22,684 nt of DNA from a virus. The position numbers and the translations under genes are program-made. The stretch spans positions 1 to 22,684 of the IMG/VR virus record IMGVR_UViG_3300031857_001491; one strand, written 5' to 3'. The notes under the pieces are model-generated. The model was not told the DNA's origin. It searched no databases and saw only the letters and a program-made list of their open reading frames with translations. Positions 549 to 15,195 of this stretch are shown here, piece by piece. Each line of letters opens with the position of its first letter. Position 1 is the first letter of the stretch.

Positions 549-3071
549 TTAACGGGCGAGGGAAAATTTAAAAGGAAATTCCGCAAAAGCCATGTATATG
601 TAAGTGAAACTTGATGAATTTGCAATATTGTTGGCGTTTCTTTGCTTAAAACCGTTAGATACAATATCTAATGAACCAGCAGCAGATGATGCTTCTGCAC
701 CGCTAGTATTAGGTTGTAATGCAGAATCAACCACATTATATGTATTGCGTTTAGTATCAAATATTACCCAACCATCTGTGCCTGTTGCTTTTTTGTAAAG
801 AATAAATGCTGGTCTAAACCCTGTGTAAATAAAAGTTCCATCAGCAGAATCATTACCAACATACGAGCCAATTTTGCTATAACCAGCAACCTCGGCAAAA
901 CAGTAGGCTACATAAGTAATTCCGCTTCCATTAACGTTATTTTGTGTTATGCCACCTTGTGCGGTAGTAAATGTTGAACTTGAAACGGGATATATTCCAC
1001 CATTATCATAGGTAGTAATTGTCTGTGATGAACCTGTGGTGTTTAAAAAAACCATATTACCAGCGGTTAAACCTGAATGGTAAACCGCCCAATCGTTAGC
1101 ACTAGTTCTAGATTTAACAATTACCATACCTGGGGTAACACCAAGTCCATGACCAACAGTAGAACCATTAGTGCCATTACCTGTATAGGTCACAATACTA
1201 AATCCAGAAGCAGTGCTAGCGCTTACTGTAGATGTAATAGTTCCTGCTGTGTTGGTTGAACCTGCTCCGTTGGCTTTCCAGTTCCAGCCAACAAAAGTTG
1301 CGGCATTTAGATTAATGTTGTTTGTATTTACTGTTGCACCCAGAGTAAATCCGTTGGAATCAAAAGAAATTAGGTTTTGAAAATTAAAGTAAGTTCCTTC
1401 TGCCACTGTGTCGTTGCTATAAAGTCCTTTTGTTGAACCAGCACCACGAACAGCATCATAAAGTCCATTAAATAACGCATCTGACCTACCTTTTAACCAT
1501 ACAAAATCGGGCTGAAATCCAACGCCTGTAATTGCATTTGTTGTGCCATTACCTGTATAAAGAACAGGATTAAAGTAATCATTAGCCTGTGTAGATGCAG
1601 TAGCACCAATAGTAGGAGTAGGTAAGTTAGTCGTGTTTAGGGTCTTAAATCCAGATGGCGGGGTGTACGAGAAGGGACGTTGACCGAAGTTAATGTCGCC
1701 AACTAAAACACCACCAACGTTTCTGTCAGTAATTTGAGCAAAATAAGTGCCACTTGGCAAGCTTGTGTATGCCACACCTTGACTTGTATTATTTTTATAA
1801 AACGTCAAAGTTCCGTTATCTAAATCTAAGGCTACACCCATTACATCGCCAGTTGTGTATGTAGCCCCATATGAAACTACTCCAGCAAGACTGTCTTTGT
1901 TGCCCGTGTCAGCTTGATATAAATAATAATCCCCAAGCACGGTAGTTCCAGGATACAAAGAAATACCAATTGACGCTATGCCACCGTTGGAACTTGCAAC
2001 CCATTCCCAATACCATTTACCAGATGAAACCCCAATTGTTCCTGCGGTAACATTTGTTGTAGATGTACTTGTTGATAGCGTTAAGTTTCCGTTAGTCAGC
2101 GTTCCGTTGTTTTGCAAAGGATTAAACGTACAGTAATTCCCCCGCCACAACGCTCCTACATCGCCCGCTGTGTTGTAAGGTATCCACTGGGTTGGGACAT
2201 CGTTCATTGAGTCGTAAGTCGTACCGCTGGTCAATGAGATATTGTTGGTAGTCCAGTTGTTGGAGTTACCTGAGAAGTCGTTACCTAGCGTGGAGGTCGA
2301 GGCGGTGTTGGAGAACGGCAAATAAAATCCATTCGTTCCGTATGTGCCTGTGTAAGCTATGGGTTGCCATACGCCTGTCTGGTCGTTAGTAGAGCCGAAG
2401 GATGATGGGGTTAGGGCTTGACCATCAATGTAGTTTAATTCGGTTATATAACCGTCAAAAAAATAAGTTGAACCTTGCTGTGCATTTATAAAATAGCCAG
2501 TATTACCAGACGCATTCCACAATAATGCTTGGTTTTGATTTGGATAGTTTGCTGTTCCAAATGCAGTTACTTGAACTCCATTGACATAGAATTTAATTCT
2601 ATTTGACGCAGTAGATTGAGTTGTATCTACCGCTAAAACGAAATGATACCAAGCTGATGGGTCACGGAATACTTGAGTGGTTGATAACTGACCAGTATAA
2701 GAAGAGCCATCGTAATAAACATAAATGTCTAGCGTATCGTTTGAATTAAAACGCATCTGACCGTTATAGGTTCCCGTAAAGAATGTATAACCAATCGTTT
2801 GGTATGCACCTAAAGTTCCACGTTTACACCAAATAGATTGCGTAAACTTTTGAGTATTCCCGCTTGAAGTAAATGTACGGTTCATATATGCAGAAGCACT
2901 AGACCTAAACCGCAAGGACTTACTAATCGGATCGGGGACGCCAGCGATGGGCCAAGTATTCTCCTTAACCGCCTGAGTGACGGACGCCATATCCCAAATA
3001 CCTTGTGCAGATGTCTGGCTTGGTGTCTGAGGAGTCTTGCGGATAATTCCGCCTGGATATCGTTTACTCAT
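549..3071 (-). CDS. LamG-like + SPRY-like + DUF7483-like adhesin (tail fibre/receptor-binding candidate)
   Basis: This 840-residue protein is the longest in the window and is built from carbohydrate-binding-type beta modules. Residues about 50-250 look like a LamG/concanavalin-A jelly roll, with RDPSAWYHFVLAVDTTQ and FYVNGVQVTAFGTANYP as hallmark strands and DGYITELNYIDGQALTPSSFG closing it. A linker (SGNSNNWTTNNIS) leads to a SPRY-like domain at about 345-470 (SGKWYWEW, then GDVMGVALDLDNGTLTFYKN). Residues about 495-840 match my memory of the DUF7483 type, with GLGVTPGMVIVKSR, YVAYCFAEVAGYSKIGSY and the terminal AFAEFPFKFSLAR. No signal peptide or membrane segment is present, as expected for a virion protein. 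Its ATG overlaps the upstream stop by one base (TAATG). It probably binds a cell-surface glycan; the receptor is unknown. Its N-terminal part is homologous to 5088-6689 and its remainder to 3071-4756. Confidence 0.85.
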   Translation of the reverse strand: MSKRYPGGIIRKTPQTPSQTSAQGIWDMASVTQAVKENTWPIAGVPDPISKSLRFRSSASAYMNRTFTSSGNTQKFTQSIWCKRGTLGAYQTIGYTFFTGTYNGQMRFNSNDTLDIYVYYDGSSYTGQLSTTQVFRDPSAWYHFVLAVDTTQSTASNRIKFYVNGVQVTAFGTANYPNQNQALLWNASGNTGYFINAQQGSTYFFDGYITELNYIDGQALTPSSFGSTNDQTGVWQPIAYTGTYGTNGFYLPFSNTASTSTLGNDFSGNSNNWTTNNISLTSGTTYDSMNDVPTQWIPYNTAGDVGALWRGNYCTFNPLQNNGTLTNGNLTLSTSTSTTNVTAGTIGVSSGKWYWEWVASSNGGIASIGISLYPGTTVLGDYYLYQADTGNKDSLAGVVSYGATYTTGDVMGVALDLDNGTLTFYKNNTSQGVAYTSLPSGTYFAQITDRNVGGVLVGDINFGQRPFSYTPPSGFKTLNTTNLPTPTIGATASTQANDYFNPVLYTGNGTTNAITGVGFQPDFVWLKGRSDALFNGLYDAVRGAGSTKGLYSNDTVAEGTYFNFQNLISFDSNGFTLGATVNTNNINLNAATFVGWNWKANGAGSTNTAGTITSTVSASTASGFSIVTYTGNGTNGSTVGHGLGVTPGMVIVKSRTSANDWAVYHSGLTAGNMVFLNTTGSSQTITTYDNGGIYPVSSSTFTTAQGGITQNNVNGSGITYVAYCFAEVAGYSKIGSYVGNDSADGTFIYTGFRPAFILYKKATGTDGWVIFDTKRNTYNVVDSALQPNTSGAEASSAAGSLDIVSNGFKQRNANNIANSSSFTYIYMAFAEFPFKFSLAR
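2239..2258. repeat. 20-base direct repeat, copy 1 (LamG-SPRY linker)
   Basis: Identical to 4689-4708 in the same orientation. It encodes NWTTNNI in the linker ahead of the SPRY-like domain, exactly where the shorter paralogue at 3071-4756 begins. Confidence 0.8.
2890..2909. repeat. 20-base direct repeat, copy 1 (LamG region of 549-3071)
   Basis: This 20-base stretch is identical to 6511-6530 and in the same orientation; with one mismatch the match extends to 26 bases. It encodes the RSSASAY part at the start of the LamG-like domain. It marks recent common descent or recombination between the two adhesin genes. Confidence 0.8.
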
Positions 3072-4756
3072 TATCTTGCCCTAGAGATCTTGAAGGGATT
3101 TTCTGCAAATGCCATGTATATATAAGTTTCTCCACTTCCAAAAGCACCATTTCTCATTTTAAATCCGTTTGAAAGAATATCCGTTAAATCGGCAGTTCCT
3201 TCTGCGTCAGAAGCATTTGCTAATAAATACGGCCCAACCACATTTCCAGTTGCACGGGCTGTATCAACCATACCCCATGCGTTTACACCATCTGAGCGTT
3301 TCCACATAATAAATCTAGGTCGAAAACCTGTGTAAATAAAAGCATTATCAGAAGAACCGTTACCAGTAAAAGAACCAAAAGCAGAGTAACCAGCGACTTG
3401 TGCAAAGCAGTAGGCTACATAAGTTCCGCCAGAACCATTGATTTGTGGATCCAAACCATATGTTGATGAAGCGTTTGTTAAATTTAAATAAACTGCACCA
3501 GTAAAGCCAGTCAACCCTATTGTTGTGCTTGTTTGCACTGCTTGAGAAATAGACCTATGCCAAGTAAGCCAGTTTGAAGAAGCCGTACTTGCGTTTCTTC
3601 CTTTAAAAATTACCATTGAAGGAGTAACTCCCAAGCCATGACCAACAGTTTCACCGCTTGTTCCATTACCACTATAAGTAACAATACTAAATCCAGCGGT
3701 TGTGTTTGCGGAGACGGTTGAGGTTATTGTGCCTTGGGTGTTGGATACTCCTACGCCATTTGCTTTCCAGTTCCATGCAACATAGGTTCCGCCTGTAATG
3801 TTATCTGCCGCATCACCGCCCGTTCCTAATGTAAAACTTGTATTGCCAAAAACTTGAACATAATAGCTACCATTAGCAACTTCAGCGTTAGTTAAATTAC
3901 TGTATAAAGTTGCGCCAGCACCACGAAGCACATCAAACAAAATATTATTGGTTGAGCTATTTCTGCGTTTAATCCAAACAAAATCAGAGCCACCGCCTGT
4001 TGTAATTACTCGATTGCTGGTACTGTTTCCGTCATAAATTGTTGCCCCCATATATTCAATACCAGCCAATATCGTAGGCGTTGGGAGGTTATATGTGTTT
4101 AGTGGCAAAAAGCCTGTTGGGGGTGTGTAGGAGAATGGTTGTTGACCGAAGTTAATATTATTTGTTACAGTGCCAGCAGAAGCATTAATGCTAACTGATG
4201 GAAAATATGTGCCTGCTAAAATAGAAGAAAAAGCAGTTCCTTGACTTGTATTGTTTTTATAAAAAGTTAAAGTTCTATTGTCTGCGTCAAAAGCTACGCC
4301 AATAATATCTCCGTTGCCGTATGTTGCACCATAAGCTGCACCTGAACCATTATTGTATTTTTGACCATCATTTGCATTGTAAGCATAGCCAGTAGCATTA
4401 TTACCAATATAAGTTGTTAAAGATGCGCTTTGTGTTTCAATGCCTACCATTGCACTATTGTTAGAGCTTGTTTGATATTCCCAATAGAATTTTCCTGAAG
4501 TTATTCCAACAGTTGCTCTTGTTGTGTTCCATGATGCTGTTGAGCTAGATGCTTGTAAATTTCCATTAGACATTGCCAATACAGATGTGTCCAAAGGATT
4601 CAATACACAATAATTAGCCGTATTTGAGTTCGTGTTGGTCGGCACATCAGTCATCACGTCATAGGTTGAACCTGGTGATGCGTAATTAATATTGTTGGTA
4701 GTCCAGTTATTGCCGTTGCCAGAGCCGTCTAAACCTGGGTTAATGATGGTAGTCAT
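3071..4756 (-). CDS. SPRY-like + DUF7483-like virion protein (paralogue lacking the LamG part)
   Basis: This 561-residue protein begins directly at the linker that joins LamG and SPRY in the neighbouring 840-residue protein (SGNGNNWTTNNI at residues 12-23). It then carries a SPRY-like domain at about 85-210 (SGKFYWEYQ, GDIIGVAFDADNRTLTFYKN, NINFGQQPFSYTPPTGF). Residues about 235-561 form the DUF7483-like region (GLGVTPSMVIFKGR, YVAYCFAQVAGYSAFGSF, YIYMAFAENPFKISRAR). It aligns with roughly residues 260-840 of the downstream protein but has no LamG domain. The ATG overlaps the stop of 4753-5091 in an ATGA, and the stop overlaps the next start in TAATG, so translation of the fibre genes is probably coupled. 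A role as a tail-fibre or receptor-binding component is inferred from domain type and neighbours. Confidence 0.85.
   Translation of the reverse strand: MTTIINPGLDGSGNGNNWTTNNINYASPGSTYDVMTDVPTNTNSNTANYCVLNPLDTSVLAMSNGNLQASSSTASWNTTRATVGITSGKFYWEYQTSSNNSAMVGIETQSASLTTYIGNNATGYAYNANDGQKYNNGSGAAYGATYGNGDIIGVAFDADNRTLTFYKNNTSQGTAFSSILAGTYFPSVSINASAGTVTNNINFGQQPFSYTPPTGFLPLNTYNLPTPTILAGIEYMGATIYDGNSTSNRVITTGGGSDFVWIKRRNSSTNNILFDVLRGAGATLYSNLTNAEVANGSYYVQVFGNTSFTLGTGGDAADNITGGTYVAWNWKANGVGVSNTQGTITSTVSANTTAGFSIVTYSGNGTSGETVGHGLGVTPSMVIFKGRNASTASSNWLTWHRSISQAVQTSTTIGLTGFTGAVYLNLTNASSTYGLDPQINGSGGTYVAYCFAQVAGYSAFGSFTGNGSSDNAFIYTGFRPRFIMWKRSDGVNAWGMVDTARATGNVVGPYLLANASDAEGTADLTDILSNGFKMRNGAFGSGETYIYMAFAENPFKISRAR
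4689..4708. repeat. 20-base direct repeat, copy 2 (start of 3071-4756)
   Basis: Identical to 2239-2258. It lies about 15 codons after the ATG of the SPRY/DUF7483-like paralogue, close to the point where homology with the fused adhesin begins. Confidence 0.8.
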
Positions 4757-7088: not shown

Positions 7089-7805
7089 TTAGTATCCGAA
7101 AATCATCGCCATAGCGATTGCTTTGCCTGTTGAAATGCCACTTGATGGGGTGGTGAAAGAGAGTGTTCCAGAACCATTAGTCTGAAGAACTTGACCGCTG
7201 GTTCCATCTGCTGCGGGTAACGTAAAAGTGACGTTAGAGGCAATAGTATCTGCTGCTTTTAGCGATACGTAATTTGTACCATTATCTGTGTCTTCGTAGA
7301 GCTTAAGGTTAGCTCCAGCGGCTGATGTTCCAGCTACGTCTAACTGAGTAATACCAGCAATCGTACCGCCAGTAATAGTTGCGGATGGGGTTGCCAATGA
7401 TGTTAGATAAGTGACTGCATCTACTACGTTAGAGCCTGTATTAAACACAAACATTGTCTTACCAGCAGGAACGGCTGTACCTGTACCTGTGGAGTTCTTA
7501 ACGGTGATAGCGTCTGCACATCCGTTGTTTACTAGGTAGAGTTTCTCGATGGCTGGAACAATTAAGTTCTGCGCACCGCCAGAAGTACCTGTTAGGTTAA
7601 GTCGTAGATTACGGGCTGTTTGAGTGGCGTTGGTGTCTGTTAGGGTTAGAGTAACGGTTCCACTGGCAAAGGTTACATCGGCAGAACCAGTAATGGCTTC
7701 TTCTAACGCAGTCCCTAAGTTGGTGTTAGTTGTTGTACCCCAAGTACCAGACTGATCGCCTGTGCCGATAAGCTCGATTTTTAGTGGTGAATAAGTCGAT
7801 GCCAT
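7089..7805 (-). CDS. Tail-fibre-like structural protein
   Basis: A 238-residue protein starting MASTYSPLKIELIGTGDQSGTWG, a start common in phage tail proteins where the GDQSGTWG segment recurs. Residues about 150-222 carry a distal-fibre module with KLYEDTDNGTNYVSLKAAD, VTFTLPAADGTSGQVLQTNG and TLSF, which I know from fibre proteins of cyanophages and other environmental phages. It ends in KAIAMAMIFGY. There are no membrane or enzymatic motifs. An AAAGGA sequence precedes the ATG. It probably forms part of the tail fibre or its attachment, with assignment based on remembered family patterns rather than a search. Confidence 0.82.
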   Translation of the reverse strand: MASTYSPLKIELIGTGDQSGTWGTTTNTNLGTALEEAITGSADVTFASGTVTLTLTDTNATQTARNLRLNLTGTSGGAQNLIVPAIEKLYLVNNGCADAITVKNSTGTGTAVPAGKTMFVFNTGSNVVDAVTYLTSLATPSATITGGTIAGITQLDVAGTSAAGANLKLYEDTDNGTNYVSLKAADTIASNVTFTLPAADGTSGQVLQTNGSGTLSFTTPSSGISTGKAIAMAMIFGY

Positions 7806-7815
7806 AATTTATCCT

Positions 7816-8844
7816 TTATGCCGCTATTTCAACCCAATTGGGCGATTGTGTGTCAATAATATCATTCCAAGTGCCTGTTTGCGAGTCATTTATATCTATC
7901 CAGTTTGGTGTTTGTCCGTCATCAATTACCTGCCAAATTAGTACACTTCCTACTTCTCCGACTGCCTGAACTCCCGTAACGCTTACTACCGCACCTATGA
8001 CTACTGCAATACTTCCAACACTGCCTGTTGCCTGTAACCCTGTGACGTCAATATTCTGTCCAGTAATTACGTTTACTTGAGCCGTAGTTGCAGTTGCCTC
8101 TACGCCCGTTAAATCTACAGAACTACCACCCGTAACCGCTACATCGCCTACAGCGGTAGTACTAGAAACCCCAGTTACGCCAACATCCGTACCTTCTTGT
8201 ACGGTTACACTGCCAACGCTTCCTGTAGCTTGGAGTCCCGTAACTGGAGCATTTGCTGCCGCTTCTACAGAAACTGAACCCTGTACTACGGTTCCTACAA
8301 CACCTGTTACGTTTACTACCGCAGTCCCAGTAACCGTTACGCTACCAACACTGCCTGTTCCTGCCACCCCAACTACATCTACACCCGTGGTCGTGGTTAC
8401 TGTTACCGTACCTAAAAATACTGTTCCTGCTACGCCTGTTAGTGCTACGGTTGCCGTACCTGTTATGGATACTGATCCTACCTGCCCCGTACCATTTACA
8501 CTAGTTACTCCAACATCCGATCCAGCATCGACAGCTACACCTTCTATCTGTCCTGTACCGCTTACCCCAATTACATCGACAACTGCCGATCCTATAATTG
8601 TTGCACTGCCTAACTGCCCTGTACCAGAAACTCCTGTTACATTTACTATCGCATCTTGGGTGGTCTGTACAGTAACTGAGCCTACTTGCCCTGCTGCTAC
8701 TACACCACCGCTATTCTCACTCCAAGGGTTTTCACCCCATCCACCATAGCCCCAACCTCCAAGAGGGACTTCTACATCAGTGTAGTCCTCGCCCCATGGT
8801 CCAGCACTCCAAGCACCACTGCCCCAGCCAGAATAGGTTGCCAC
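7816..8844 (-). CDS. 22-residue repeat protein with Trp/Gly-rich N-terminus and Trp-repeat tail
   Basis: This 342-residue protein has three parts. Residues 1-45 are Trp/Gly-rich (YSGWGSGAWSAGPWGE, GGWGYGGWGENPWSE). Residues 53-296 are eleven repeats, one of 24 and ten of exactly 22 residues, with a partial twelfth; the consensus is roughly VGSVTVxxGxxVxVTGVxGTG. Residues 305-342 hold three shorter repeats around W (DDGQTPNWIDI, NDSQTGTWNDI, DTQSPNWVEI). Alternating Val and regular Gly turns suggest a beta solenoid or stacked hairpins. I recall similar uncharacterised repeat proteins in marine phages. The start codon is GTG with no clear Shine-Dalgarno, and no internal Met exists; the upstream gene stops 7 bases before, so reinitiation is likely. 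A fibrous virion protein is inferred. Confidence 0.85.
   Translation of the reverse strand: MATYSGWGSGAWSAGPWGEDYTDVEVPLGGWGYGGWGENPWSENSGGVVAAGQVGSVTVQTTQDAIVNVTGVSGTGQLGSATIIGSAVVDVIGVSGTGQIEGVAVDAGSDVGVTSVNGTGQVGSVSITGTATVALTGVAGTVFLGTVTVTTTTGVDVVGVAGTGSVGSVTVTGTAVVNVTGVVGTVVQGSVSVEAAANAPVTGLQATGSVGSVTVQEGTDVGVTGVSSTTAVGDVAVTGGSSVDLTGVEATATTAQVNVITGQNIDVTGLQATGSVGSIAVVIGAVVSVTGVQAVGEVGSVLIWQVIDDGQTPNWIDINDSQTGTWNDIIDTQSPNWVEIAA
7957..8688 (-). repeat. Tandem 66-base coding repeats (22-residue units)
   Basis: Codes for residues 53-296 of the repeat protein, read as one 72-base unit followed by ten 66-base units in exact register. The units keep VGS at positions 2-4 and [VLI]TG[VL] near positions 15-18, while their DNA has diverged considerably, so the repeat is old or maintained at protein level. 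Confidence 0.85.
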
Positions 8845-8851
8845 TGATAAA

Positions 8852-9289
8852 TCACGCTATGCGGATAATGGCGTTACTTGCGTCTGCTGTTGGGAAGACG
8901 ATGGTAAACGTACCGCTAGTAGAGGTCTTAGCACCACCAAAGTCCAAAATACATACAGAAGGATTACCTGCTGCGGTATCGTTATAAATCATGGCGCCAT
9001 ATGCAGTAATGGTCGCAGAGGTAAACGATAAATCAGCAAAGTCGGTAAAGGCTGTAGTACCCGAAGAAGTTGGGGTTACATTGGTTAATGTACCGCCACC
9101 AGCCGAATAAGTACCAGAGTTAGCCACTTCGTTGGTATTTGTATAAGCAGTGGTAGCAGCCGTGAAGGATGCGCTATTGTCATACATAGCTAATTTGAAG
9201 GTATTTCCAGTACCAGTCGTAAAGTTATGAACCGCTTGCATAAGCTCCACTTTGAAGCTGGTACACATAAAGTTGCCTGTGAACGCCAT
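8852..9289 (-). CDS. Conserved small phage structural protein
   Basis: A 145-residue beta-rich protein beginning MAFTGNFMCTSFKVELMQA and containing HNFTTGTGNTFKLAMYDN, a glycine-rich middle, then APTSSGTTAFTDFADLSF-like and AYGAMIYND segments and a terminal FPTADASNAIIRIA. This pattern is a very common unnamed family in environmental phage genomes, usually next to fibre or adaptor genes. I see no catalytic motif or membrane segment. A clear AGGAG precedes the ATG. It is probably a minor virion protein, but its role is not known. Confidence 0.85.
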   Translation of the reverse strand: MAFTGNFMCTSFKVELMQAVHNFTTGTGNTFKLAMYDNSASFTAATTAYTNTNEVANSGTYSAGGGTLTNVTPTSSGTTAFTDFADLSFTSATITAYGAMIYNDTAAGNPSVCILDFGGAKTSTSGTFTIVFPTADASNAIIRIA

Positions 9290-9298
9290 TTTTGACTC

Positions 9299-9586
9299 CT
9301 ATTCGTCTAAAAGTTTAATTAATTCAGGATGACCAGCTTCCCGTAGCTTGTGAGCTAGTGTTACACGATCAAATTTTACCGCTTCATTCATATAAAAAAC
9401 CAGAACTTCCCGAATATGATTCCTAAAAGCAATGGCTTGCTCCCGAACCAAAGGATGGGACTGATCCCCTACCTGAATAATCTTATCTAATGCCCGTTCA
9501 GCGACTTCCTCTGGGGTAAAGCCACCGTGGTCTTTTGTAAATACTTGGATACCGCTAGACTCGCCTAGCCCTTGTACGCTAATCAT
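9299..9586 (-). CDS. Conserved hypothetical helical phage protein
   Basis: A 95-residue, mainly helical protein. Recognisable pieces are GGFTPEEVAERALDKII, SHPLVREQAIAFRNHI and a C-terminal helix VTLAHKLREAGHPELIKLLDE. I recall close relatives in environmental phages beside adaptor genes, with no assigned function. It begins inside an ATGA overlap with the upstream adaptor-like gene (9583-9586), suggesting coupled translation and a role in the same part of the virion or its assembly. No membrane segments, cysteines or metal sites are seen. Confidence 0.8.
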   Translation of the reverse strand: MISVQGLGESSGIQVFTKDHGGFTPEEVAERALDKIIQVGDQSHPLVREQAIAFRNHIREVLVFYMNEAVKFDRVTLAHKLREAGHPELIKLLDE

Positions 9587-10242
9587 CTTACTGGATACCT
9601 CACTTGTCCACTTCTATAGGCGTCTTGACGATCCTTAGCATCGCCCAACTGTTTCAGATCTGCCATGGCTGCGTCATAACGACCTTTGTACATCGTCATA
9701 GTGTCAGCGTCTGTTTTCATAAAGTTTGCTGCTTCTAAAAGCGCACCATACAACAACACAGAATCAAAATTATCCCCAAGCCAGGTAGTCCCTGCGGTAA
9801 CAATGGACTGTGGGTAATAGAAATAGTGAAGTTCTACAGCGTAGTTAGAGTTTGGAGTAGGCCCCAAAATAAAGCTATTGTTATCAAAAATAGCGTAATA
9901 CTCAGGCTCTCCATAGAACGCAGCGTCCGTATCTGGGTAGGATTCACGGATAAAGTTAACATCTTTGTTAAGAAGATAGTGGTACTCATTTGCCGCATTA
10001 ATCACCGCAAGGCTAAAGGTAGCCAGCCAATCAACAGGAGTCGCTAGGTACTTATTTCCGCTTGTTACATTTCCCGTAACATTCTTACGGAAAGCTGGCA
10101 TTTGCACCGTGTTATAGATGCGTTGCTCGGCAAGCTGGACAAACCTAGCAATCTGCTCGGCAGACGTAAAAGAGCCTACTGTCGCTGGGAAGTCGTTCTC
10201 AGCAAAACCTTTAATAGCAGAAGTTAACTGCGTATAGTTCAT
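9583..10242 (-). CDS. Head-tail adaptor/nozzle-like protein
   Basis: A 219-residue protein opening MNYTQLTSAIKGFAENDFP, followed by FVQLAEQRIYNTVQMPAFRKN, which is characteristic of the phage adaptor proteins often annotated near DUF6682 and SU10-type tail-adaptor families. The middle is beta-rich (KYLATPVDWLATFSLAV, YYAIFDNNSFILGPTP, YAVELHYFYYPQSI) and the C-terminal third is helical (LLYGALLEAANFMKTDADTMTMYKGRYDAAMADLKQLGD). It likely forms a ring below the portal or connects portal and tail. The start ATG lies in an ATGA overlap with the gene at 10239-10508. It could alternatively be a minor tail protein, but the arrangement after the other adaptor favours a connector. Confidence 0.8.
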   Translation of the reverse strand: MNYTQLTSAIKGFAENDFPATVGSFTSAEQIARFVQLAEQRIYNTVQMPAFRKNVTGNVTSGNKYLATPVDWLATFSLAVINAANEYHYLLNKDVNFIRESYPDTDAAFYGEPEYYAIFDNNSFILGPTPNSNYAVELHYFYYPQSIVTAGTTWLGDNFDSVLLYGALLEAANFMKTDADTMTMYKGRYDAAMADLKQLGDAKDRQDAYRSGQVRYPVR

Positions 10243-11147: not shown

Positions 11148-12066
11148 AGAATGTCGTCCTAGGAACGAACCTAGAAGCGGCTTTCTCTCTGTCCTCCGTA
11201 GAAGCCAGGAGCCACTGCTCCTCGTATTCTTGCTTTAAAAATTGCACTCGTGCCTGTCCGTCTGGTAGCTTTTGAGCCATATAGAAAGCCAATCCAGCCA
11301 CCATACAAGGTAATAGGCGAAAGGGAATATCTGGCTCTACCGTTCCATTAGATCCAGCATCTTGAATCCTACGCAACCTCCAATACACAAAGGTATAAGG
11401 ACCGCCACCCGCATCGGGCGTGGGCCATACATTAATAGAAGGAAGGTTCTGTACTGTAAGGGCTGCACCTGTCGTATGGGCAGCTGCTGTAGTTCCGTTT
11501 TGACCACGGTAGCAATTTGTTAGGACGTTACCAATGACGTTGGCGTAGCTAATTGTCTCATTGTCAATCTTAACAAAGCCACCGATAGGAAGGGCGCTGG
11601 CGTCACTAACTGTGATAGATGTGGTCACAGCATCAATTGTGCCGTTTAAGGTCACAGCGGTCGAATTAGACTGTCCTGATTGGCGATTAAACCAGACTTG
11701 AATAGGACGCCCAGTAGTCAGTTTATTAGGAATAGTAGAGTAGGTAGACTCTGAAATACGGGTAATATTAATGTCTATCTGGTTGCTGGTAACACCGTTA
11801 TTCTGGCGAACTACATGGTCTAAAAGGTCAATTGTATTGACTGGAATAGGATAAATCCCTTGCCCAGTAACCATTGCAACCTGTCCCTGCTCAATAGTCC
11901 ACAGGTTAATACCACGATTTGCCCATTCAACTGTCAATAAGTTCAAGGATCTGCGGGCAGTCCGCATATCGTAACCCGTACGTAATTCTGTACCACAACG
12001 CTCAAAAGCCTCTTCAATGAGGTTATTAAGGTCTAGGTTAAACGATGTGGTTCCAGAGGTGGTCAT
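11140..12066 (-). CDS. Head-tail adaptor protein with an inserted beta module
   Basis: A 308-residue protein. Residues 8-60 (FNLDLNNLIEEAFERCGTELRTGYDMRTARRSLNLL in pieces, then EWANRGINLWTIEQ) match the helical start of gp4/gp11-type phage adaptor or stabilisation proteins that sit under the portal. Residues 61-130 and about 208-235 are beta strands (IYPIPVNTIDLLD, PSINVWPTPD, FVYWRLRRIQDAG), and residues 245-308 are helical again. Residues about 135-205 interrupt this with a separate module (SITVSDASALP, GGFVKIDNETISY, CYRGQNGTTAAAHTTGA) typical of phage surface or tail beta domains. An ATGA overlap joins it to the gene upstream. It probably closes the head and connects to the tail. Confidence 0.82.
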   Translation of the reverse strand: MTTSGTTSFNLDLNNLIEEAFERCGTELRTGYDMRTARRSLNLLTVEWANRGINLWTIEQGQVAMVTGQGIYPIPVNTIDLLDHVVRQNNGVTSNQIDINITRISESTYSTIPNKLTTGRPIQVWFNRQSGQSNSTAVTLNGTIDAVTTSITVSDASALPIGGFVKIDNETISYANVIGNVLTNCYRGQNGTTAAAHTTGAALTVQNLPSINVWPTPDAGGGPYTFVYWRLRRIQDAGSNGTVEPDIPFRLLPCMVAGLAFYMAQKLPDGQARVQFLKQEYEEQWLLASTEDREKAASRFVPRTTFYA

Positions 12067-12317
12067 TTTTTAGCGGCTCTCATATTGTCTACAAGATTAG
12101 GATATGGTCTACCAGCAGCTTTTGCCATGGCTTTTGCGCTGGCTTTTTTAGCAGTAGATAGTTTTTTGGGTTTACCTAAACCTTTTGGTCTTGGCTTATC
12201 CCAGACTTCCCCGCCTTTTTTATATTCGGTAAAGTCAGTATCATCCCTACGAGCTTTACGCTTAGGTTTGCCCATTTTAGTAGGCATAATAGCGCCCATT
12301 CCACGACTTGGTCTCAT
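12063..12317 (-). CDS. Small basic phage protein
   Basis: An 84-residue Lys/Arg/Ala-rich protein starting MRPSRGMGAIMPTKMGKPKRK and ending LVDNMRAAKK, with an alanine/lysine helix (STAKKASAKAMAKAAG). A TTG nine codons upstream (12344) would extend it, but the ATG at 12317 sits in an ATGA overlap with the preceding stop and has AAGGA seven bases away, so I use the ATG. It contains EYKKGGEV, similar to the YKKGGKV lead-in of the neighbouring tagged proteins, but no RADGCA tag follows. Unknown function; probably a basic virion or DNA-contacting protein. Confidence 0.75.
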   Translation of the reverse strand: MRPSRGMGAIMPTKMGKPKRKARRDDTDFTEYKKGGEVWDKPRPKGLGKPKKLSTAKKASAKAMAKAAGRPYPNLVDNMRAAKK

Positions 12318-12682
12318 ATCTTTGTCCTTCCCCGAATAGCGCAACCATCTGCTCTGGATGACGCTGATTTAACTTTGCCACCAGCTTTGTAATTCTTAGT
12401 AATGTCACGGTTTGACTTGGGCATTACACCGCCACCGCCTGTAGTCAACCTTCCCATGTCCTGCAATCTTTCAGCATAAGTGCGTGGGCTTTCAGCTTTA
12501 GCTTTTGCCCTTTGCTCTTCTGCCATTCTATGCGCTTCAGCCTTAGCCCTTTCGTTCTCCTGCTTTACTTTTTCAGCAGCTTTATCGTATTCGCTAGGTC
12601 CAAACTTTTCCTTGGGAGGAGTGTATTTATCACTCTTACCATCACCAACTTTTTTAGAAGGGTCAATAGGCTCTATTGGCAT
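12314..12682 (-). CDS. Coiled-coil protein with C-terminal RADGCA tag (third of three)
   Basis: A 122-residue protein of unknown function. The first 30 residues are Lys/Pro-rich (MPIEPIDPSKKVGDG). Residues 30-77 form a charged helix likely to be a coiled coil (YDKAAEKVKQENERAKAEAHR onward). After a GGGG hinge the C-terminus reads YKAGGKVKSAS, then RADGCAIRGRTKI. The tag matches those of the two preceding genes, although the N-terminal part is unrelated to theirs. Its ATG overlaps the preceding stop by one base (TAATG) and its stop overlaps the next ATG (ATGA). The tag GKT is changed to GRT here. Virion passenger or assembly protein is an inference. Confidence 0.78.
   Translation of the reverse strand: MPIEPIDPSKKVGDGKSDKYTPPKEKFGPSEYDKAAEKVKQENERAKAEAHRMAEEQRAKAKAESPRTYAERLQDMGRLTTGGGGVMPKSNRDITKNYKAGGKVKSASSRADGCAIRGRTKI
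12317..12391 (-). other. RADGCA C-terminal tag, copy 3
   Basis: Codes for residues 98-122 of the coiled-coil protein: lead-in YKAGGKVKSAS, then RADGCAIRGRTKI to the stop. Codons differ from the other copies at many synonymous positions. Confidence 0.75.
12325..12329 (-). promoter_or_regulatory. Ribosome-binding site deciding the 12317 start
   Basis: AAGGA on the minus strand, within GGGGAAGGA, is seven bases before the ATG at 12317. It lies inside the last codons of the upstream tagged gene, supporting ATG rather than the TTG at 12344. Confidence 0.6.
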
Positions 12683-13050
12683 TACGCTCTAGTCTTTCCA
12701 CGGATAGCACAGCCGTCTGCACGAGCTGAGGCAGACTTAACTTTTCCACCCTTTTTATATGATTTGTATCCTTCTAATCCGCCTGTTTCTCTTGCACTAG
12801 AAACATAATTTCTTGCTTGCTCTGCTTTTTGTTGTTTAGCCGCCATAGCAGCCTCTTGTGCTGCAGCTTGTGCGTTTTTTTCGTCTTCTTGAGCTTTATT
12901 AGCAATTGATTGCTGCTTGCTATCATAAGCATCTTTAGCAATCATTTGAGGCAAAAACCCACCAACACCTTGACGGATAAGATTGCCCGTCATGCCTTCA
13001 CCAGTTACCATTCCAACAACAGGACTAATATCTCCGAGTTTGAATCCCAT
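12682..13050 (-). CDS. Gly-rich/helical protein with C-terminal RADGCA tag (second of three)
   Basis: A 122-residue protein. Residues 1-40 are hydrophobic and glycine-rich (MGFKLGDISPVVGMVTGEGM, then GGFLPQMIAKD), reminiscent of an amphipathic membrane-active segment but not a clear transmembrane helix. Residues 45-83 are an Ala/Gln/Lys-rich helix (AQAAAQEAAMAAKQQKAEQA), probably coiled coil. The tail is YKKGGKVKSAS followed by RADGCAIRGKTRA. The start is ATG two bases after the stop of the preceding tagged gene. Function unknown; a packaged or ejected internal virion protein is one possibility, inferred from the Gly-rich amphipathic start and the position after the head genes. Confidence 0.78.
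   Translation of the reverse strand: MGFKLGDISPVVGMVTGEGMTGNLIRQGVGGFLPQMIAKDAYDSKQQSIANKAQEDEKNAQAAAQEAAMAAKQQKAEQARNYVSSARETGGLEGYKSYKKGGKVKSASARADGCAIRGKTRA
12685..12756 (-). other. RADGCA C-terminal tag, copy 2
   Basis: Codes for residues 99-122, YKKGGKVKSAS lead-in region then RADGCAIRGKTRA to the stop, nearly identical in protein to copies 1 and 3 but with different codons. Confidence 0.78.
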
Positions 13051-13052
13051 AG

Positions 13053-13361
13053 TTACACCATCTTTCCTCTAGTTTTGCCTTTAATAGCGCATCCATCAGC
13101 TCGCTTAGAAGCGCTGGAAACTTTTCCACCTTTAGCTTTTTTAACTGGTTCTGGCTTTTTCTTTTCTGGACCAAAGATCTTATCCCGTAACTTAACCATA
13201 GGATTAGCTTCGTTCTCCTCACGGGCGAGGCGATCAACCATCTCTTGTGGCAGCTCGTCTTTAACAACAGTTCCTTTATTAAAGCCTGGAACGCCACGTC
13301 CTTTAAGAACGTCAGCACGAGTTACTTTGCCGTCATCGTTAAGGTCTGGGAAATTAGCCAT
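13053..13361 (-). CDS. EF-hand-loop protein with C-terminal RADGCA tag (first of three)
   Basis: A 102-residue protein starting MANFPDLNDDGKVTRADVL. Residues 6-17 (DLNDDGKVTRAD) fit a canonical EF-hand/dockerin calcium loop: D1, N3, D5, G6, V8 and D12. A helical, charged middle (PQEMVDRLAREENEANP) and a Lys/Pro stretch lead to AKGGKVSSAS then RADGCAIKGKTRGKMV at the end. I chose the ATG at 13361, two bases after the upstream stop; a TTG at 13370 has a better-placed AAGGCGG and would add three residues, so the start is uncertain. Only one EF-hand loop is present, whereas EF-hands usually work in pairs. Function unknown; calcium binding is predicted. Confidence 0.78.
   Translation of the reverse strand: MANFPDLNDDGKVTRADVLKGRGVPGFNKGTVVKDELPQEMVDRLAREENEANPMVKLRDKIFGPEKKKPEPVKKAKGGKVSSASKRADGCAIKGKTRGKMV
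13056..13130 (-). other. RADGCA C-terminal tag, copy 1
   Basis: Codes for residues 78-102 of the EF-hand protein: KGGKVSSAS lead-in, then RADGCAIKGKTRGKMV to the stop. The GKMV extension is shared with the C-terminal motif of 13364-13918. Confidence 0.78.
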
Positions 13362-13363
13362 GA

Positions 13364-13918
13364 TTAGCAATACCCGCCTTTGTTCATCTTGACCATCTTG
13401 CCTTTGGTTTTGCCTTTGATCTCAATGCCACCGCCTTTAGCCATGCTATGCATACGCTTCTCATGTCCTTTAACAGCCTTGGCAGCAACTTTCTTCATCA
13501 TTGGTTTGTCTTTAGAAACGTCTGAATGGGCCATACCGCCTTTTTTCATACCAGCCTCAGCCATCTCATGTTTAATCATGGACTTAGGAGCGCCCTTTTT
13601 CTTCATAAAATCAACTTCTTTCTTAACCATCATCTTAGATTCTTTCATTTCTTTTCCTTTCAAAATTCCACCGTCTTTTTTACCAGCATACTTTTCTAAA
13701 CTAAAATTTGGTAATTGCATCATCCCATGATTAGACCGTGGTTTGTTGAATTTACCTTTAGATGGATTAGTAGATCCACCAGTTCTAAACTTTTTACCTT
13801 TATCAGCTTCCATAAAATCTTCTCCAACAGATTTAGGAATGCCAACCTTTTTAGCAAACTTTGGGTTATTAGCCACAGCTGCCATTAGGTTGTGCTGTTT
13901 TTTGCTGACGCTAGGCAT
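13364..13918 (-). CDS. Basic modular phage protein with C-terminal IKGKTKGKMV motif
   Basis: A 184-residue, strongly Lys/Met/Gly-rich protein. Residues 1-45 (MPSVSKKQHNLMAAVANNP, FAKKVGIPKSVGEDFMEADK) are a pattern I recall from many environmental phages without known function. Residues 93-160 are a second module (KMMVKKEVDFMKKKGAPKSM, IKHEMAEAGM, HEKRMHSMAKGG). Residues 161-176 (KGGGIEIKGKTKGKMV) align with the end of the EF-hand protein (IKGKTRGKMV), followed by KMNKGGYC. Its ATG lies 8 bases inside the preceding gene. The charge suggests a DNA- or capsid-interacting protein, which is inference. Confidence 0.8.
   Translation of the reverse strand: MPSVSKKQHNLMAAVANNPKFAKKVGIPKSVGEDFMEADKGKKFRTGGSTNPSKGKFNKPRSNHGMMQLPNFSLEKYAGKKDGGILKGKEMKESKMMVKKEVDFMKKKGAPKSMIKHEMAEAGMKKGGMAHSDVSKDKPMMKKVAAKAVKGHEKRMHSMAKGGGIEIKGKTKGKMVKMNKGGYC
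13391..13438 (-). other. Tag-like C-terminal motif GGGIEIKGKTKGKMV
   Basis: Codes for residues 161-176 of the 184-residue protein. It shares IKGKT[KR]GKMV with tag copy 1 but has GGGIE in place of RADGCA, so it appears to be a variant of the tag. Confidence 0.6.
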
Positions 13919-14164: not shown

Positions 14165-14425
14165 TTAGCACTTCCATCTTGCCAAAGAAGCTGCTTTACG
14201 AGTAGGTCTGCCTTTTTCATCTTTCATTGGTCCAGGCATTCCAGACATACGAGCGCAGAAAGACTTCTTGCGAGCGCCACCTTCTGGCTGTGGAGCCTTT
14301 AGATTCGAGCCAGTCGCTTTATTATATTTAGCACGACCCTTGGCGGTAAGCCCAGCACCCTTAGATACAGGCAGCTTTTCACCACGACCAATCGCAAGAG
14401 AGGGTCCTTTCTTTTTAGTAACCAT
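14165..14425 (-). CDS. DUF6321-like small basic protein
   Basis: An 86-residue basic protein. It contains GAGLTAKGRAKYNKATGSNLKAP and KKSFCARMSGMPGP, and ends in RKAASLARWKC. This combination is what I remember for DUF6321 proteins, which are common in phages and have no known activity. Two cysteines, one in SFCAR and one at the very end, could pair or bind a metal, but this is not established. The ATG is joined to the stop of the glycosyltransferase gene by a TAATG overlap. Unlike its neighbours downstream it does not carry the RADGCA tag. Confidence 0.8.
   Translation of the reverse strand: MVTKKKGPSLAIGRGEKLPVSKGAGLTAKGRAKYNKATGSNLKAPQPEGGARKKSFCARMSGMPGPMKDEKGRPTRKAASLARWKC
14171..14175 (-). 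promoter_or_regulatory. Ribosome-binding site deciding the 14162 start
   Basis: GGAAG on the minus strand, eight bases before ATG 14162, within the last codons of the upstream gene. It supports the shorter start of the membrane protein. Confidence 0.5.
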
Positions 14426-15195
14426 TATGCGACATCCTTTTTGGAGTCAATAGGTCTAATAAGAGGATATAAATAGTCCTCACCAAATGATCCTTCAAAC
14501 TCAGTAATGCCCATGTGATTTAACTTAATTGTAGGATCAATCCATACCTCATAGCCATGCTCAGTAGCACGGTCGCAGAACGTATAGTCCTCGCCTACAT
14601 AGCCTTCTGGAGTGGATTTAAAGTCAAAGAATGAATAGCAAAACTTGTCTGGATGTCCGTTTTCTACTCGGTCATCATGGTACTTCCACTCAGGATGATT
14701 GTCTCTGAGGGTCTCAAATACTTCTCTACGAATCAACATAAAGGCGGTGGCGATGCGTTTAGCTTTAACTAAACCATAGGCATTCATATAAATACCGCCA
14801 TCGGCATCTTGCTCTAATGTAGAAATGTAAGTTTTTTGTTTCTTACGGGCTACAGGAACACCGCCTACGATACCCTTCTTAGGATCTATATTCCAAGCCA
14901 TTAAACGGAAAATGTCTTCTGCGTTGAAGTTGATGTCTGAATCAATAAACATTAGATCCGTGCAGTCTGAGGCTAAAAAATCTTTAGCTATTAAGTTTCT
15001 TACACGAGAAACTACGGAACACCCAGAAATGTTGCAGATCTGGATTTGTACTCCATGTTTAGGTGCTTCTACGCAAAACTGGGCTAATGAGATAGCTAGT
15101 TTTACAGAAACTTTAAAGTCGTAAGCGGGAAGACCAAGCATGATCTTCCTGCCTACTAAATTAAATGAACCTTGTGCTTGTACTGGTTCTGACAT
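14425..15195 (-). CDS. GT-A-type glycosyltransferase
   Basis: A 256-residue protein with the layout of a single-domain, cytoplasmic GT-A glycosyltransferase. An N-terminal Rossmann-like strand (KIMLGLPAYDF) is followed by SRVRNLIAKDFL and the metal/nucleotide-sugar-binding DxD motif at residues 85-87 (FIDSD). Residues 147-160 (RIATAFMLIRREVF) resemble the family's conserved strand-helix. Near the end, GEDYTFCDRATEHGYEVWID and PTIKLNHMG give the ED catalytic pair (202-203) and the late His (227). The family transfers a sugar from a nucleotide donor; the acceptor cannot be read here. Its place among capsid genes suggests modification of virion proteins or of host-surface glycan, both inferred. 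No signal peptide is present. Confidence 0.83.
   Translation of the reverse strand: MSEPVQAQGSFNLVGRKIMLGLPAYDFKVSVKLAISLAQFCVEAPKHGVQIQICNISGCSVVSRVRNLIAKDFLASDCTDLMFIDSDINFNAEDIFRLMAWNIDPKKGIVGGVPVARKKQKTYISTLEQDADGGIYMNAYGLVKAKRIATAFMLIRREVFETLRDNHPEWKYHDDRVENGHPDKFCYSFFDFKSTPEGYVGEDYTFCDRATEHGYEVWIDPTIKLNHMGITEFEGSFGEDYLYPLIRPIDSKKDVA

Follow-up and report, generated by a model that had tools for sequence, protein, structure and literature searches.

The repeat protein encoded in the window (the whole 22,684-base virus record analysed here) is a member of an unnamed, widespread phage family; its kind, a beta-rich virion appendage, is known, and its modular build is new. In the leading reading, which we consider about as likely as not, the protein belongs to the structure of the virion's tail region, where it would form a beta-solenoid rod with an exposed, variable face. 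If so, it becomes a candidate for contacting the host in abundant aquatic phages, most of whose receptors are unknown. The family is frequent in aquatic phages, yet it has no name in three general family libraries (Pfam, PHROGs, and NCBIfam).

Architecture of the repeat protein

The gene and the parts of its product are as follows.

7816–8844, minus strand: repeat-protein gene, whole (342 a.a; GTG start; stop at 7816–7818, from the open reading frame list)
8695–8844, minus strand: Trp/Gly-rich head, residues 1–50, with two GWGxGxWxxxPWG-type motifs (from the sequence)
7966–8697, minus strand: array of eleven repeats (one of 24 and ten of 22 residues), residues 50–293 (from sequence and model)
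7933–7965, minus strand: partial twelfth repeat, residues 294–304, ending in the first of four Trp at 11-residue steps
7819–7932, minus strand: tail of three 11-residue Trp repeats, residues 305–342, sharing its 11-residue phase with the array (from the sequence)

The 22-residue repeat is confirmed. A 13-residue core motif occurs twelve times, at a spacing of 24 and then ten times of 22, which is exactly the composition (one repeat of 24, ten of 22, and a partial one) given in the first-pass annotation. Its coordinates were also correct; it did not specify the strand, which is minus, the plus strand of the same interval containing many stops. The build that it described, with a Trp/Gly start, repeats, and three Trp repeats at the end, is present as well, the end repeats being 11 residues each. 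The start codon (GTG or ATG) is found at the same place in the homologues, and the two Trp/Gly motifs of the head read GWGSGAWSAGPWG and GGWGYGGWGENPW. Autocorrelation over residues 51–300 reached 0.404 at lag 22 and 0.422 at lag 44, compared to a maximum of 0.256 in the shuffle control (2000 shuffles, lags 5–59). Tandem Repeats Finder found no tandem array at the DNA level in positions 7700–8950 of the window, the periodicity being at the protein level only, which indicates that the 22-residue register has outlived the duplications that made the array.

The terminal Trp repeats of the window protein (DDGQTPNW, NDSQTGTW, and DTQSPNW) recur every 11 residues exactly, half the period of the array, with Trp 304, 315, 326, and 337 at 11-residue steps. 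In the relatives, 324 of 347 spacings between tail motifs are likewise 11, and 163 of 197 proteins have their first tail motif in the 11-residue phase set by the array. Among the 69 proteins without the commonest distance, the phase is kept in 35, where chance would give roughly 1 in 11; relatedness among the rows keeps this from being a formal test.

Gene neighbourhood

Virion-type genes are read along the minus strand of the window, in which the genes closest to the repeat gene are the following.

9583–10242, minus strand: SU10-type adaptor (head-tail connector) gene (Pfam SU10_adaptor, E 4.2e-25)
9299–9586, minus strand: conserved 95-a.a neighbour gene (adjacent in relatives; no Pfam match)
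8852–9289, minus strand: PHROG-644 family gene, 145 a.a, directly upstream of the repeat gene (PHROGs, E 2.6e-14)
7089–7805, minus strand: fibre-like gene, 238 a.a, directly downstream of the repeat gene (PHROG 31104)

The full minus-strand order is the end of a terminase-like open reading frame (ORF), portal, capsid, SU10_adaptor proteins, the 95-a.a gene, the PHROG-644 gene, the repeat gene, the 238-a.a fibre-like gene, and lectin-like fibres. The portal gene belongs to PHROG 1216 and a capsid protein is also present, while the partial ORF ahead of the portal gene was recognised as terminase-like from its position, with no search behind the call. Two proteins in the window match SU10_adaptor in Pfam, one strongly and one weakly, and the lectin-like fibre proteins carry Laminin_G_3, SPRY, and DUF7483 domains. 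By eye, the N-terminal motif of the 238-a.a protein is the same as that of the annotated tail-fibre protein of the Roseobacter phage CRP-902. The repeat gene, separated from its two neighbours by gaps of 7 and 10 bases, was thus found to lie in the virion-morphogenesis module, adjoining connector and fibre genes.

Across relatives, the repeat gene nearly always has the adaptor and PHROG-644 genes before it and fibre genes after it. We compared 143 loci with a repeat gene, 135 of them with 450 nt or more of sequence upstream. A PHROG-644 homologue precedes the repeat gene on the same strand in 131, at a distance of at most 150 nt in 118; the 95-a.a gene is upstream in 127 and the adaptor in 124. 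To avoid picking loci by the repeat, we also sampled by PHROG-644, which gave 160 loci (repeated contigs kept), 22 of them too short. In the 138 usable loci, the repeat gene came next in 108, later in 11, and was not seen in the stretch covered in 19, with "next" scored leniently on at least two units and at least 3 of the 108 (L207, L213, L218) resembling ordinary fibres by eye. In PHROG-644 phages without a repeat gene next, a tail-fibre gene commonly fills the slot (HTVC023P gp58, CRP-603 gp58, CRP-902 gp50, MJing1, ct7L0027).

Neither Pfam nor PHROG showed a tail domain in the window repeat protein, and a profile search of the PDB with the PHROG-644 neighbour gave no match. An N-terminal motif search of the scanned repeat ORFs for a canonical fibre anchor domain returned 0 candidates, and no fusion of the array to such an anchor was found among them.

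Distribution and relatives

Searches of Pfam, PHROGs, and NCBIfam with the window repeat protein gave nothing below E 0.1. Among 61 family members, the Pfam matches were scattered and unrelated in name (E 0.00078 or weaker); in PHROGs, five members matched phrog_31224 and three phrog_36982 (best E 0.0021). Against 50,697 phage records, the window protein found a single match, in the metagenome-assembled lake phage DSL-LC04. Relatives are numerous in IMG/VR: 33 loci were found with the window protein as the query, 31 with the relative L021, and, with a 14-row alignment as the query, at least 451 relatives were confirmed among the first 600 candidates listed. In GTDB genome contigs, relatives were present in 8 of 232 candidate stretches, all within metagenome-assembled genomes. 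The best BFVD match to the model of the repeat protein was A0A6J5P871, an uncharacterised protein of an uncultured phage (E 6.9e-11, 29% identity), and the cyanophage matches of one relative (L147) cover only its N-terminal ~120–160 residues, not the repeat units.

DSL-LC04 (proposed 'Dishuiviridae', PMC10611076) has the same three parts and gene order as the window; it differs by additional Trp/Gly modules that interrupt the array (spacings of 41). A distant member, gp68, is carried by the cultured pelagiphage HTVC027P, which leaves the role of the family open to experiment. Queries from more distant members found gp68 (E 3e-5 and 3e-9, the latter with L288 at 28.9% identity), while the window protein itself did not recover it from the 50,697 phage records. 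As in the family, gp68 has Trp/Gly motifs, VTG-type units, an LIW...W end, and the slot directly after the PHROG-644 homologue (gp67), with genes annotated as tail proteins following it.

Judged from listings, the literature on phage repeats, pelagiphages, solenoid fibres, and Trp/Gly tail proteins held no description of the family that we could find, and gp68 is unmentioned in main-text passages of the HTVC027P transcriptome paper (PMC12753301). We also noted a branch of relatives (L265, L266, L272, L288, and similar) with Trp/Gly modules scattered through the array and units often of 20 residues, in which the array ends in TGSNTSYTDVA-type 11-residue repeats.

Unit length and unit number

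In 243 distinct relatives, neighbouring units are spaced by 22 residues in 1834 of 2105 cases (spacings of 15–29 residues counted), the remainder including 103 spacings of 20, 94 of 24, 44 of 21, and 18 of 23; one branch, of 15 proteins, is mostly at 20. The number of core motifs per complete relative ranges from 3 to 28, and three more relatives score 0. The strong length constraint proposed in the first-pass annotation therefore holds for the unit and not for the whole protein: the comparison of repeat number that it suggested revealed wide variation around a largely constant unit length. The exact spacing of 22 fails in the relatives, and the irregular spacing in homologues that it had named beforehand as counting against its reading occurs in part, as the minority at 20, 21, 23, and 24.

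The unit number changes quickly. On a PHROG-644 tree of 195 tips, we counted at least 103 changes, compared to a mean of 135 and a minimum of 127 in 100 shuffles, and the unit count is shared by 83% of 12 pairs with identical PHROG-644 proteins and by 44% of 179 pairs at 95–100% identity. Two relatives retain 66-bp arrays in their DNA (L019 and L085, the latter with 21 copies, 80% matches, and 0% indels), indicating that units are gained in whole steps. This rapid gain and loss of whole units offers a natural length series for testing the effect of rod length.

An even-step rule, as strand alternation would give, was considered and rejected. The raw off-22 counts are biased toward even spacings (103 and 94 versus 44 and 18), and the bias is lost once similar segments are grouped: one anchor gave 14 even versus 22 odd groups and the other 31 even (20/24) versus 19 odd (21/23), with 25-residue spacings adding a further 1 and 9 odd groups, respectively.

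Four distinct contigs (L038, L051, L127, which is the same as L161, and L130) carry the architecture twice in full, as a long and a short copy that overlap stop to start. The short second copies comprise a head, 3–4 units, and a tail (L038, 2434–2875; L051, 3270–3711; L127, 3929–4295; L130, 6597–6972). Separately, the very long array of L019 (1384–3993) is broken by an in-frame stop, either genuine or an assembly error.

Substitution pattern within the unit

Constraint alternates residue by residue within the unit. For unit positions 8 to 20, a set of 13 close relatives of the same length gave pN values of.053,.253,.118,.216,.119,.181,.107,.118,.048,.172,.008,.139, and.000, such that each odd position exceeds both of its neighbours. 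This set leaves out L002, which does not differ from the window, L013, which is one residue longer, and L012, whose tail is frame-shifted and which was also left out of the fold alignment and the tree and included in its entropy clade. The corresponding entropy test (odd > even) was significant in three of five clades (p = 1.5e-5, 0.0017, and 0.0007) and non-significant in two (p = 0.11 and 0.83, the latter nearly invariant).

Residue classes follow the same alternation. Even positions are Val, Ala, or Gly and odd positions are rich in Ser, Thr, Asn, and Asp, with charged residues at no more than 4% at positions 8, 10, 14, 16, 18, and 20 and at 15–33% at positions 11, 13, and 15. Together, the alternating constraint and residue classes are the pattern expected of beta-strands with one buried and one exposed face. 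The array evolves about three times faster than the head, the tail, and PHROG-644 (pN/pS of.31,.13,.12, and.10, respectively, with the 13 close relatives used for the repeat protein); overall pN/pS is below 1, so positive selection is not shown. A Thr ladder of the ice- or lattice-binding kind was considered given that Ser and Thr are common at outer positions 7, 9, and 19, and was dropped as positions 9 and 19 are fast-changing.

Predicted fold and alternative readings

The array likely folds as a beta-solenoid, a prediction of low model confidence. From the single sequence of the window protein the model was poor (pLDDT 50), and a fold search with this no-alignment model returned beta-helices and other repeat folds. 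With 61 sequences (the window protein and 60 of 72 relatives picked by length and spacing), AlphaFold2 predicted two beta-strands per 22-residue unit in a flat solenoid, at a mean pLDDT of 57.7, with 65–74 in the core, below 50 in the head and tail, and no residue reaching 90. The monomer prediction called for in the first-pass annotation yields, at low confidence, a solenoid, one of the two forms that it had envisaged. Gene neighbourhood, strand pattern, and model taken together are best read as those of a virion part resembling a fibre or solenoid.

In the structure that we propose, each 22-residue unit would form one coil, consisting of two beta-strands of 7–9 residues and two short arcs, and twelve coils would stack into a flat rod of ~6 nm at the usual rise per coil of 4.8 Å. 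Positions 8, 10, 12, 14, 16, 18, and 20 (Val, Val, Ala/Gly, Ala, Val, Val, and Gly) would pack the core, and the odd positions between them, mostly Ser, Thr, Asn, and Asp, would form the outward face. The 11-residue Trp repeats may extend the half-coil rhythm and cap the rod, while the Trp/Gly head would dock it, presumably on the connector or on the adjacent PHROG-644 product. The rod would lengthen or shorten by a whole unit of 66 bp at a time, and its exposed face would change by point mutation; variable length and face would suit contact with a variable partner, such as a polymer on the host surface or fibres of the phage itself, a suggestion drawn from the variability of the outer face alone. 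The virion location, the oligomeric state, the docking by the head, and the binding of a receptor or partner are what we infer.

A more far-reaching version, which we consider rather unlikely, would make the protein a 'ruler' in podovirus-like phages of marine and fresh waters: a single-chain beta-solenoid built of 11-residue half-coils throughout, from the array to the Trp cap and the exchangeable Trp/Gly modules. The length of this ruler would be tuned by 66-bp units, its outer face would diversify over a fixed core, and in some phages back-to-back long and short copies would stack end to end, the whole being an independent phage counterpart of the curlin design.

Possible, and on the doubtful side, is a trimeric fibre shaft in which three chains intertwine as a triple beta-spiral or triple-stranded beta-helix, with 22 residues equal to two 11-residue shaft repeats and the Trp/Gly head serving as the virion anchor. 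The strict register, the variable unit number, and the place beside fibre genes fit such a shaft equally well, the 11-residue Trp motif marks 11 as a step of the structure, and a trimer would be invisible to single-chain prediction. However, the core positions span two strands and an arc in one unbroken in/out phase, as in a single-chain coil, and the single-chain model does form a solenoid, though weakly; the scanned repeat ORFs also lack the canonical fibre anchor domain.

We consider improbable that the protein is a decoration or an appendage of the neck, at the head-tail junction, instead of a tail or fibre part. Its nearest constant neighbours are the connector-type and PHROG-644 genes, whose products could sit at the neck, but the downstream gene is fibre-like and the slot after PHROG-644 holds tail-fibre genes in other phages.

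Very improbable is a largely disordered, low-complexity chain whose solenoid is a predictor artefact. AlphaFold2 is described as drawing beta-solenoids for repeat sequences without ground (PMC11795689), a bias that together with the low pLDDT would favour disorder. Stacked core charges, included among the published artefacts (PMC11795689), are absent from this sequence. Moreover, a disordered chain would not predict a 22-residue register held after decay of the DNA repeat, a per-residue alternation of constraint, or a phase shared with the Trp tail.

Comparison with curlin and other repeat folds

The proposed beta-solenoid rod has counterparts in shape. With the 61-sequence model, Foldseek found nothing in the PDB under E 0.35, so the structural ranking that follows is a second look at weak matches. 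The curlin CsgA (8c50_A) came first (Z 24.9, rmsd 8.4, 283 aligned), followed by HMW1 (2odl; Z 19.8, rmsd 3.1, 257 aligned) and then other beta-helices, the best-aligned PDB chains being parallel beta-solenoids and beta-helices. CsgA of Pontibacter korlensis (PMC10192328) has two strands per ~22–23-residue unit in a flat stack, as the low-confidence model predicts for the repeat protein, and resembles it in a widely varying unit number and half-unit endings; the coil geometry of the two may be much alike.

Likewise very improbable is that the protein is itself an amyloid subunit of the curli kind, encoded by the phage for secretion from its infected host cell. The unit length class is the same and the best fold match is CsgA; in addition, pelagiphages related to HTVC023P are reported with curli operons (PMC9599517), and one record (L144) holds CsgG (E 2.3e-50) and a weak curlin match alongside a family member. 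Against this, Curlin_rpt (PF07012) had no match in the window protein or among the 61 members in a Pfam scan and was above cut-off in 0 of 40 records searched, and CsgG is absent from 39 of the 40, including those of the window, DSL-LC04, and HTVC027P; many of these records are fragments, with DSL-LC04 and HTVC027P deposited as complete genomes. Curlin also has Asn and Gln at the core-facing ends of both strands (N-x-psi-x-psi-x-Q; PMC10192328), a ladder absent from the repeat family, in which Asn and Gln together make up 0.00–0.07 at even positions 8–20 (1213 distinct units). Finally, the gene belongs to a virion module instead of a curli operon. Gene content and motif led us to reject a curli identity, which is largely refuted by both sequence and gene context. 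The CsgG and weak curlin matches of L144 lie at 11829–12609 of its record (G019).

Known phage appendages resemble the proposed rod in shape and setting. The phi29 gp12 (3gq7; Z 17.9, rmsd 7.2, 292 aligned) and the Sf6 tailspike (2vbe; Z 16.4, rmsd 4.1, 276 aligned) share its parallel beta-helix shape and a place among tail genes, but their coils are long and irregular and bear catalytic or binding loops, in contrast to the short uniform units of the family. No sequence match of the family to phage tailspike or appendage beta-helices was found. The leucine-rich repeats of internalins also have a period of 22 residues, and phmmer gave weak matches to Internalin H and C2 (E 0.029 and 0.5); however, the leucine pattern is absent from the repeat protein. 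This identity was rejected, with no leucine-rich repeat match in Pfam and no PDB chain found at E <= 1 by the 61-relative profile.

Other observations in the window

Several further features of the window, all on the minus strand, were noted. The 238-a.a fibre-like ORF ends in the peptide GKAIAMAMIFGY (7089–7105), and similar ends occur in short fibre-like ORFs of the relatives L228 (...ALNFVFGV) and L231 (...AAAMSMIFG), perhaps as an assembly tail. Adjacent paralogous fibre proteins, each with SPRY and DUF7483 domains, are encoded at 549–3071 and 3071–4756. A glycosyltransferase-like protein (Glyco_transf_21, E 3.8e-5) lies within the virion module at 14425–15195. Finally, three small consecutive proteins (12314–12682, 12682–13050, and 13053–13370) have a common C-terminal motif, KGGKVxSASxRADGCAI(R/K)GKT, present more weakly in that at 13364–13918; the two of these proteins tested had no Pfam match, and the motif resembles a common tag or targeting tail.
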